Shown: positions 17,847-19,577, numbered from the stretch's first letter. The stretch is 38,837 nt of DNA from Gammaproteobacteria bacterium (GCA_020341735.1 CP070833.1:2504092-2542928); one strand, 5' to 3'. Made by a program: numbers and translations. Notes: generated by a model from the sequence alone, not told the origin.

Positions 17847-17874
17847 TTGCCGGCGCCAGCATGTTGCCTATATT
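17847..17874 (+). promoter_or_regulatory. Candidate sigma-70-type promoter for the sigma factor operon
   Basis: TTGCCG (17847-17852) and TATATT (17869-17874) are separated by 16 bases, a fair match to a housekeeping promoter, about 50 bases before the sigma factor ATG. A second possible signal, TGTAAT (17893-17898) with CGTAT (17919-17923), lies closer to the ATG and could be an autoregulatory ECF-type site, but its 20-base spacer is long. Neither is tested. Confidence 0.35.
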
Positions 17875-17926
17875 GTCCCCGCTTGGCGACCTTGTAATAA
17901 ATCCGGGGGAGGGCCGGTCGTATCCC

Positions 17927-18451
17927 ATGAGCACGAAGATCAGCGATCTCGGCAGACGCCGCGAGTTCGACGACCTTGTGCGGGAGTTGAGGCCCGATCT
18001 GTACCGCTATGCCTTCTGGCTGTCGCGCAGCAGGCAGGTAGCGGACGACGTTGTGCAGGAGGCCTTGCTGAGAGCCTGGAAGGCGTTTGACCGTCTACGC
18101 GACTCGTCGGCGGCCAAGCAATGGCTGGTGTCGATAGTGAGGCGCGAGCATGCCCGGCTCTACGAGCGCAAGCGACTGGAAACGGTCGACCTGACCGCGT
18201 ACGAGGAAGAGCTGCCGGCGCCGGGTACGGATCCGGATCTGGAGAAGCTCAGGATAGCGATATTCGAGCTGGAGGACGGTTACCGTGAACCTTTGGCTTT
18301 GCAGGTCCTGATGGGACACACGACAAGAGAGATCGCGGAGCTGATGAACATCAAGGAAGGCGCGGTGCTGACTCGCCTTCACCGGGCCAGAAAACGCCTC
18401 AAGGCGGATCTGGGAAGAGAAACAGACGAACCACGGGACGACGAAGCGTGA
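17927..18451 (+). CDS. ECF-type RNA polymerase sigma factor
   Basis: The 174-residue protein is the size of an extracytoplasmic-function sigma factor. Region 2 covers about residues 10-75: [23 protein letters not shown], then [26 protein letters not shown], which contact core RNA polymerase and the -10 box. Region 4, at about 110-165, is a helix-turn-helix ([27 protein letters not shown]) for the -35 box. There is no region 3, as expected for this class. ATG 17927 was chosen because homology starts there; a GGGGAGGG lies somewhat far upstream. The next gene, a membrane anti-sigma-like protein, overlaps by four bases (GTGA), and the HvfA-like peptide follows, so this factor probably controls that peptide and itself. 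Confidence 0.9.
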
Positions 18452-19101
18452 CGGAACGCGAAATGTCGGACAAATCGATCGAGACGAGAGAGGCGGCTGA
18501 TGCTGCCGATCCCGAATTCGAGGCCTTGCTGGAGCGCGCTCTACGCATCCCCTTGCCGGAAGCGGACCGCCGTGCGCAGAAACCCAAGGTCGGTATCTCC
18601 CGTTGGCGCTGGCCGGCGGTGGCAGCCGTCGCATTGTTGGCGATCGGTGTCACATTCGGGATATTGAAGAATTCCGCCTTTATTCCAAGCGACAGCCTTG
18701 CCGCCGACGTAGTGGCGCACATACATCATGAGCCGAGGGCGATTTCGCCGCGCCCGGCATCCGACGTACAGCCGGTGTCGAACGTAGAAGTTACCCGGGT
18801 GCTGCAGGCGGCCGGAGCGGAGATGGGTAACATCGATCCGATCGTCCGCTACGCCAAGCTGTGCCCGTTCAGAGGAAGGATGGTTGCCCACTTTGTAGTT
18901 CAGGGAGAAGCTGGCCCCGTAACGGTGATGCTCTTGCCTGAAGAGGACGTGACCGGCCCGGTCGCCGTGGACGAGGATGGCTTCATGGGCACTATCGCCC
19001 CACTGGCTATTGGCGGCAGCATCGCCGTGGTCGGGGAGCCCGGCGAAACGCTGGAGGAGATACAGAGAGAGGTAGCCGCTGCCTTGCGGTGGCGGCTTTA
19101 A
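18448..19101 (+). CDS. Single-pass membrane protein, probable anti-sigma factor (DUF3379-like)
   Basis: The 217-residue protein has an acidic cytoplasmic N-terminus (about 1-50), one membrane helix (about 55-73, WPAVAAVALLAIGVTFGIL) and a periplasmic domain of about 140 residues, the usual topology of an anti-sigma factor. I think it matches DUF3379, known beside ECF sigma genes, but cannot confirm that by search. There is no zinc-binding HxxxCxxC anti-sigma motif. The periplasmic part carries HIHHEP (H91, H93, H94) and a single cysteine, C139 (YAKLCPF), which might sense metal or redox state; that is inference. It overlaps the sigma gene by four bases. The in-frame ATG at 18463 is an alternative start. 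Confidence 0.75.
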   Translation: MTEREMSDKSIETREAADAADPEFEALLERALRIPLPEADRRAQKPKVGISRWRWPAVAAVALLAIGVTFGILKNSAFIPSDSLAADVVAHIHHEPRAISPRPASDVQPVSNVEVTRVLQAAGAEMGNIDPIVRYAKLCPFRGRMVAHFVVQGEAGPVTVMLLPEEDVTGPVAVDEDGFMGTIAPLAIGGSIAVVGEPGETLEEIQREVAAALRWRL

Positions 19102-19108
19102 GAAGGAC

Positions 19109-19145
19109 GGTCCCGTGGGGACCCTAACGAGAGGCCCCGAGGGCC
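19109..19145 (+). other. Two tandem hairpins between the anti-sigma and HvfA-like genes
   Basis: The 68-base spacer contains GGTCCC-GTG-GGGACC (19109-19123) and GGCCC-CGA-GGGCC (19133-19145), both perfect short stems with three-base loops. Neither is followed by a T run, so they are not intrinsic terminators. They could stabilise or mark a cleavage point for a separate, more abundant peptide mRNA, a common way to make more precursor than regulator from one operon. The peptide's ribosome binding site (GAAGGAGAG) lies just downstream and is free of both stems. Confidence 0.5.
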
Positions 19146-19169
19146 AAACGAAACTGAAGGAGAGAGAGC

Positions 19170-19514
19170 ATGAGCGACAACAATCTGAAGCCGGTGACCG
19201 TTGCGGTTGGAGCTGCCCTGGCCACGTCCGTGGGCGCCGTGTCCGTGGCCAGTGCCGAGGCAACCCCATTTGCGATGACCGCCCTGAGCTCGGGCTACAT
19301 GGCCGATGTCCACTTCGGCGAGGGCAAGTGTGGCGAAGGCAAGTGTGGCGGCGACGACGCCAAGGGTGAGGAAGGCAAGTGCGGCGAAGGCAAGTGTGGC
19401 GGTGACGACGCCAAGGGCGAGGAAGGCAAGTGCGGCGAAGGCAAGTGTGGCGGCGACGACGCCAAGGGCGAGGAAGGCAAGTGCGGCGAAGGCAAGTGCG
19501 GCGGATCGTCCTGA
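19170..19514 (+). CDS. HvfA-type cysteine-repeat precursor of a copper-binding RiPP
   Basis: The 114-residue peptide has a signal-like N-terminus (LKPVTVAVGAALATSVGAVSV, likely cut after SVASA, about residue 29). A short linker (PFAMTALSSGYMADVH) leads to a C-terminal half of eight EGKCG motifs with cysteines at 54, 59, 71, 76, 88, 93, 105 and 110. This leader, the LSSGYM linker and the EGKCG repeats are the hallmarks of HvfA, the Haemophilus precursor whose cysteines an MNIO enzyme (HvfB, with HvfC) turns into copper-binding oxazolone-thioamide groups. No hvfB, hvfC or DoxX-type hvfD is adjacent. GAAGGAGAG precedes the ATG and a strong terminator follows. Copper binding and modification are inferred from the family. 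Unmodified, it could still chelate metal through its thiols. Confidence 0.85.
   Translation: MSDNNLKPVTVAVGAALATSVGAVSVASAEATPFAMTALSSGYMADVHFGEGKCGEGKCGGDDAKGEEGKCGEGKCGGDDAKGEEGKCGEGKCGGDDAKGEEGKCGEGKCGGSS
19320..19505 (+). repeat. Coding tandem repeat, 51-base unit, 3.65 copies
   Basis: Inside the HvfA-like gene the unit EGKCGEGKCGGDDAKGE is present three times in full, at 19320-19370, 19371-19421 and 19422-19472. A final 33-base partial copy ends at 19505. Units 2 and 3 differ at one base and units 1 and 3 at three, all synonymous. Near-identity at DNA level points to recent unit duplication, or correction between copies, with selection for the same peptide. Copy number could vary between strains by slippage without breaking the frame. 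Confidence 0.95.
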
Positions 19515-19549
19515 TCGATTGATTCGGTCCGAGTGGGCCGATCGTGAGA

Positions 19550-19577
19550 GCCCCGGCCATCCGGCCGGGGCTTTTTT
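19550..19577 (+). terminator. Rho-independent terminator after the HvfA-like gene
   Basis: A perfect nine-base-pair GC stem (GCCCCGGCC with GGCCGGGGC) and an ATCC loop are followed directly by six T. It lies 35 bases after the peptide stop codon, ending the sigma/anti-sigma/peptide operon before tag. Confidence 0.93.

Follow-up and report, generated by a model that had tools for sequence, protein, structure and literature searches.

The window analysed here is a stretch of 38,837 nucleotides (CP070833.1:2504092-2542928) from a gammaproteobacterial genome that consists of one contig of 2,885,973 bases and is rated 80% complete. Open reading frames and profile matches place on its plus strand a gene for an ECF sigma factor, a DUF3379 gene and a gene for an HvfA-type metallophore precursor, followed by a terminator (Table 1). 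The DUF3379 and sigma ORFs overlap by the bases GTGA, 68 bases separate the DUF3379 gene from the precursor gene, and the operon is flanked by hemB and aroE on one side and by tag on the other. The initial annotation of this DNA had described three packed plus-strand genes with such an overlap and gap, a closing terminator, and hemB and tag as neighbours; every one of these features is present, and aroE can be added on the hemB side.

Table 1. Features of the sigma-DUF3379-hvfA operon, in window coordinates
Feature	Position	Strand	Basis
ECF-type promoter of the sigma operon (predicted)	17894..17919	+	Present in 25 of 26 sigma-DUF3379 operons of the order; same motif 5' of hvfBCX and msrPQ
Promoter elements	-35-like GTAATAA 17894-17900; 15-nt spacer; -10-like GGTC 17916-17919	+	
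ECF sigma factor, 174 aa	17927..18451	+	Sigma70_r2, Sigma70_r4_2; best NCBIfam relative PRK12517
DUF3379 single-pass membrane protein, proposed anti-sigma factor	18448..19101	+	PF11859
Signal peptide and conserved leader of the HvfA-type precursor, up to TALSSGYM	19170..19301	+	Sequence, alignment of 24 genomes
HvfA-type (oxazolin/captophorin) precursor, 114 aa	19170..19514	+	Eight EGKCG motifs, four 17-residue repeats
Intrinsic terminator at the operon end	19546..19575	+	Hairpin of 13 pairs, 9 G-C, T run

The sigma ORF matches Sigma70_r2 (1.9e-13) and Sigma70_r4_2 (2.2e-11), both above cut-off, and its product (174-196 aa) has the regions sigma-2 and sigma-4 only, which identifies it as an ECF factor. 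Translation most likely starts at ATG 17927 and not further upstream, because a conserved ECF promoter fills the preceding bases and the promoter-to-ATG spacing recurs in relatives. The coordinates given in the initial annotation (17847-19577) were right, with the sigma start moved to this ATG. The ATG sits 7 nt 3' of the -10-like GGTC (window 17916-17929); the same distance is found in the majority of 25 motif-bearing operons, and it is 3-13 nt in most others. Since the start codon follows GGTC this closely both here and in most relatives, the sigma mRNA is probably leaderless. No motif match that could serve as a separate hvfA promoter lies inside the 68-base gap. Folding between DUF3379 and hvfA gave z-scores of -2.5 to +0.3, and the idea of a conserved RNA hairpin there was set aside as unconvincing.

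The precursor has exactly eight EGKCG motifs and is the sole EGKCG protein of the 2.886-Mb genome. Its score against the NCBIfam model KCGExKCG_twice (59.9 bits, cut-off 19.5) makes it a member at the domain level, and its score against the HvfA equivalog model NF050188 (83.1 bits) lies below the cut-off of 95. Sequence and an alignment of 24 genomes give it a signal peptide and a conserved leader (PFxMTALSSGYM). As had been noted, there is no maturase gene in the window or adjoining the precursor, and the typical arrangement of a precursor next to hvfB and hvfC is absent from this genome. The peptide had consequently been described as an orphan, a description that no longer holds. A search of the genome for MNIO and HvfC genes returned one hvfB-hvfC-hvfX set (MNIO maturase, partner and DoxX protein; G000:C1:1797129-1799285), which begins with the only MNIO gene of the genome (hvfB, G000:C1:1797129-1797980) and lies on the same contig as the precursor gene at a distance of about 725 kb. 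All three products score above the cut-offs of their models (HvfB, NF003818, 441.8 vs 360; HvfC, NF050145, 317 vs 142; HvfX, NF050144, 135.8 vs 80). Apart from the gene in the window, no EGKCG precursor was found near hvfBCX or elsewhere in the genome, and no small cysteine-rich gene adjoining hvfB was seen by eye. The search thus returned no complete hvfABCD locus with an HvfA of its own, which the initial annotation had named as a finding that would speak against its model. Precursor and maturase thus share a contig at a separation of about 725 kb, which makes the metallophore system a split one rather than an incomplete one. Immediately 5' of hvfB, near rnf and nth genes, is a lipoprotein-like gene related to DUF4397 (L002 7568-8983), and the promoter motif of hvfB falls between the two.

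This motif, G(T/A)AATAA-N15-GGTC, is found upstream of the sigma gene, hvfBCX and msrPQ, with hvfB carrying the GAAATAA variant. It has four matches in the genome, namely these three and one at 250056, which was rejected as a regulon member because no real gene follows it. The form TGWAATAA-N14-16-GGTC likewise has four, at the sigma operon, hvfBCX, msrP and 401927; the last lies within a TonB-receptor gene of the other strand and was also rejected. The reversed patterns of both forms have zero matches in this genome. When two mismatches are allowed the genome contains 55 matches compared with 63 in the reversed control, and weak sites are therefore not claimed. A one-mismatch copy directly before dnaJ (G000:C1:2189784; L284 1501-1545) may be due to chance. 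A slightly looser motif has 55 matches in 435 kb of relatives' loci, all selected because they surround sigma, HvfA or MNIO genes, compared with 1-2 in Markov shuffles.

A matrix trained on the sigma-operon sites only was scored on the 600 bases 5' of hvfB. Scores ranged from 9.2 to 28.1 in 24 genomes with DUF3379 and from -7.4 to 5.8 in 12 without it, and the two groups do not overlap. The Mann-Whitney p of 7e-7 is only a guide, because the genomes belong to one order and are not independent; the complete separation is the point. We relied on the DUF3379-minus genomes as the control because random windows contained real sites, which inflated the random-window percentile. At the level of sequence, these scores establish that the motif at hvfB depends on the sigma-DUF3379 pair across genomes. 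Because the distant hvfBCX has what looks like the same promoter as the precursor operon, one switch appears to reunite the split pathway. Two earlier proposals, that the locus is a regulatory module and that the peptide is modified in trans, are thereby well supported: the only HvfB/HvfC/HvfX set lies elsewhere, has no hvfA and carries the motif of the sigma operon. The initial annotation had also considered a peptide that buffers metals through its thiols without being modified; in this reading it would be exported, and its neighbours would only set its level. In favour of this, the window has no maturase gene, and none lies beside the peptide. However, because the genome has the full set, with the same promoter motif, and because the leader is conserved across 24 genomes, we regard an unmodified peptide as very improbable.

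To see how general this arrangement is, we turn to a sample of 59 genomes of the order, including that of the window, of which 26 have DUF3379. The DUF3379 gene is directly 3' of an ECF sigma gene in all 26. The triad of sigma, DUF3379 and EGKCG genes that had been suggested as a search target in other genomes was found in 24, where hvfA comes next after the pair and hvfB is sited elsewhere; because the same order recurs in 24 of the 26, it is not due to chance. One exception, G029, has the sigma-DUF3379 pair (L127 2443-3671) and no MNIO, HvfA or promoter motif, and in its DUF3379 protein the second periplasmic histidine of HxxHE is replaced. In the other, G058, hvfA is gone from the interval between DUF3379 and tag (L150 1884-3830). 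Its motif precedes a DUF2282-like bufferin gene (assigned by eye) and an MNIO gene (L151 2483-3775), so that this regulator seems to control a different type of peptide there. Among the genomes with no DUF3379, G020 and G055 show the usual arrangement, with HvfA directly adjoining MNIO. G005, from the same family as the window, keeps aroE-hemB-hvfA-tag and has lost exactly the sigma-DUF3379 pair (L102 1823-4878); the region upstream of its hvfB has no promoter motif. G005 also has an additional HvfA gene, accompanied by HvfX and oriented divergently from another ECF sigma gene (L101 1956-4317). After that sigma gene comes a membrane-type protein that has the stretch CLCHTHG close to its end, and the two may be a further sigma/anti-sigma pair that has taken over. 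In G010 (L111 2624-3353) and G021 (L122 2503-3074) a second HvfA gene stands alone behind a copy of the promoter motif.

The conservation also bears on whether hvfBCX might modify some other, unrecognised precursor, with the window peptide as a decaying copy. The distance of about 725 kb and the HvfA equivalog score under cut-off would fit decay. However, the peptide is the only EGKCG protein of its genome, its leader and repeats are intact, its terminator is present, the arrangement is conserved across the order, and inspection of the hvfB neighbourhood in this genome revealed no small cysteine-rich gene. We consider this explanation extremely improbable.

The DUF3379 ORF matches PF11859 with 5.4e-22. 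An alignment of the 26 DUF3379 proteins shows a cytoplasmic N-terminus, one transmembrane helix and a conserved periplasmic domain, in which H91, C139 and H148 are invariant and H94 and E95 nearly invariant. A single transmembrane segment encoded directly 3' of a sigma gene is the layout of a membrane anti-sigma factor. The predicted model (mean pLDDT 81, pTM 0.63) places the helix at about residues 55-76, behind a short cytoplasmic N-terminus. The zinc anti-sigma (ZAS) motif Hx3CxxC is present in the N-terminus of 17 of the 26 proteins and is missing from the window protein and all six members of its family, in which only a membrane-adjacent segment is left; because of this absence, the sigma-binding part seems to be reduced in the window's family. 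The modelled periplasmic domain is nearest to the C-terminal domain of MucB/RseB (Foldseek probability 1.00 for 6jau_A, E 0.009), and the top five structural matches are all MucB/RseB, with VIA Z of 7.3-7.7, below the tool's caution line. Sequence searches gave no match linking DUF3379 to MucB/RseB; the best PDB sequence match, to the anti-sigma factor RsiW, had a non-significant E of 0.46. The evidence for fold kinship to MucB/RseB is moderate, because of these Z values and because the sequence searches did not return MucB. With Hx3CxxC in most relatives and a modelled periplasmic domain nearest to MucB/RseB, DUF3379 has the appearance of an anti-sigma factor.

In a class-wide sample the sigma-DUF3379 pair is spread over many families. 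The DUF3379 gene comes directly after an ECF sigma gene, often overlapping it, at nearly all of 29 class-wide loci; an MNIO gene lies within 1.5 kb at about eight of them, and at many of those outside the order HvfA was not seen within 1.5 kb of the pair. EGKCG genes are found in 26 of 50 DUF3379-bearing genomes and 72 of 319 others (p = 4e-5), and MNIO in 39 of 50 compared with 183 of 319 (p = 0.005), with kinship ignored in both tests. A profile built from an eight-protein DUF3379 subset returned 28 loci, nearly all from gammaproteobacterial MAGs. In other Gammaproteobacteria the pair is divergent to an MNIO gene (L228, L232, L233, L234, L235, L244, L254); some of these MNIO genes match HvfB less well and could represent a different type. 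DUF3379 could be imagined to serve the metallophore as a structural partner or a chaperone, and the N-terminal zinc motif is indeed absent in the window's family. Such a role is hard to square with a gene that follows an ECF sigma gene in 26 of 26 members of the order and at nearly all 29 class-wide loci, even where HvfA is not nearby, and Hx3CxxC in 17 of the 26 proteins and the non-significant RsiW match (E 0.46) also point towards an anti-sigma factor. We therefore think a partner role improbable.

The third motif site of the window's genome is directly 5' of msrP (equivalog score 462.8 bits vs 207), which is followed by an MsrQ-like membrane gene. In relatives, motif sites precede genes for MsrP, MsrAB, AhpC/TSA- or thioredoxin-like, DM13, DUF3179 and DUF1223 proteins (L197, L201, L208, L209, L210, L212, L214, L217, L218, L193), many or most of them with a signal-like N-terminus. 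These targets were picked from pattern matches without a formal background count, so that any one of them may be fortuitous; it is suggestive that envelope redox functions keep recurring among them, and a wider envelope redox regulon in relatives is likely. One may ask whether the sigma factor and DUF3379 mediate a general envelope redox response that covers msrPQ and periplasmic thioredoxin-like proteins, with HvfA and HvfBCX as mere passengers and copper not the signal. The targets in relatives would suit such a response, as would the H. influenzae and Neisseria counterparts, which answer oxidants or control MsrAB (PMC7907618, PMC2893595), and the 11 of 50 DUF3379-bearing genomes class-wide in which no MNIO match was found. 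However, HvfA is inside the sigma operon in 24 of 26 genomes and the hvfB motif is present in all 24 tested, whereas the remaining targets vary between genomes, and Caulobacter sigma-F responds to metals and not to reactive oxygen (PMC3511200). A general redox response has an appreciable chance of being correct, though one well short of even.

We consider it likely that the window holds one half of a split thiooxazole metallophore (oxazolin/captophorin) system, the half that provides control and substrate, and that the sigma factor is held by DUF3379 and drives its own operon, hvfBCX and msrPQ. The promoter motif, the msrPQ target and the anti-sigma features of DUF3379 are additions to the initial annotation. 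DUF3379 would keep the sigma factor inactive at the inner membrane, with its short cytoplasmic part binding sigma and its RseB/MucB-like periplasmic domain sensing a signal in the envelope, for which copper or oxidant damage is the most likely candidate. The freed sigma factor would then transcribe from the G(T/A)AATAA-N15-GGTC promoters. At its own operon this would increase sigma, anti-sigma and HvfA precursor together; at the distant hvfB-hvfC-hvfX it would supply the products that are predicted to oxidise the EGKCG cysteines to thiooxazoles; and at msrPQ it would promote the repair of oxidised periplasmic methionines. After export by Sec, the modified peptide would bind copper in the envelope. 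A further and more tentative proposal is that DUF3379 represents an undescribed class of one-piece anti-sigma sensor. The membrane segment would join its sigma-binding N-terminus, zinc-binding in most lineages, to an RseB/MucB-like domain, and the invariant or nearly invariant residues HxxHE...C...H of this domain would themselves bind copper or react with oxidants. The class would govern EGKCG and DUF2282 thiooxazole metallophores in many Gammaproteobacteria. On balance this extension may well prove wrong.

The chemistry of these metallophores is established (PMC13097082, PMC13419390), and clusters for MNIO-modified metallophores are present in about half of the Pseudomonadota reference genomes (PMC13097082). 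A survey of the genes around MNIO found sigma/NrsF genes in Buf1 and not in Buf2 clusters, and mostly core genes in EGKCG clusters (PMC12452194). According to the same survey, a precursor beside hvfB/hvfC is typical and not universal; stand-alone precursor genes exist, some with non-conserved flanking genes. Surveys that start from the maturase and its neighbours cannot see a split layout. Our analysis supplies a regulator, a predicted anti-sigma family (DUF3379) and a promoter motif that can be scanned for in any genome, together with a proposed regulon that joins copper binding with the repair of oxidised methionine, and the inducing signal of these peptides becomes directly testable. None of the open-access papers searched names DUF3379, and among them we found no report of it as an anti-sigma factor or of the split layout.

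Control of such peptides and of methionine-sulfoxide reductases by ECF factors is known from Neisseria (PMC2893595), H. influenzae (PMC7907618) and Caulobacter (PMC3511200). The oxazolin system of H. influenzae has the same components as the one described here, an EGKCG precursor, the MNIO HvfB, its partner HvfC and the DoxX-type HvfX (PMC13419390), and there too the doxX cluster is under an ECF sigma factor, RpoE2, that also drives MsrAB (PMC7907618). However, hvfA and hvfBCX form one operon in H. influenzae, whereas here hvfA is in the sigma operon. In H. influenzae the sigma gene lies at a separate locus, and the anti-sigma factor that goes with it, HrsE, is a cytoplasmic peptide of 67 aa, unlike the candidate described here, a membrane protein with a periplasmic domain. 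In Neisseria, the operon NMB2140-NMB2145 (rpoE-NMB2145) combines an ECF sigma factor, a ZAS anti-sigma factor and the DoxX/metallophore cluster behind one autoregulated promoter, with msrAB in trans (PMC2893595). Its -10 element CGTCTAA (PMC2893595) resembles GGTCTA here, but its -35 element is GTMAGBWTT with a spacing of 12-13 nt compared with GTAATAA-N15, everything is in one operon unlike the split layout, and the anti-sigma factor has no fused periplasmic domain of the kind seen in DUF3379. Caulobacter sigma-F, controlled by NrsF, has a similarly small regulon of metallophore clusters and the MsrP homologue YedY, and NrsF, a membrane anti-sigma factor with conserved periplasmic cysteines, is reminiscent of DUF3379 (PMC3511200). 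However, NrsF has six transmembrane segments and DUF3379 only one, and the Caulobacter precursors are DUF2282 bufferins located with their maturases, behind the promoter GTAACC-N16-CGAA. The sigma-E systems RseA/RseB and MucA/MucB pair a membrane anti-sigma factor with periplasmic sensing, much as proposed for DUF3379; their sensor is a separate protein, whereas DUF3379 would have a similar domain (fold similarity moderate, Z 7.7) fused to the membrane segment. The system described here differs from these known ones in its anti-sigma candidate, in its promoter sequence, and in its gene layout, in which the sigma operon encodes the precursor and the maturase is encoded in trans.
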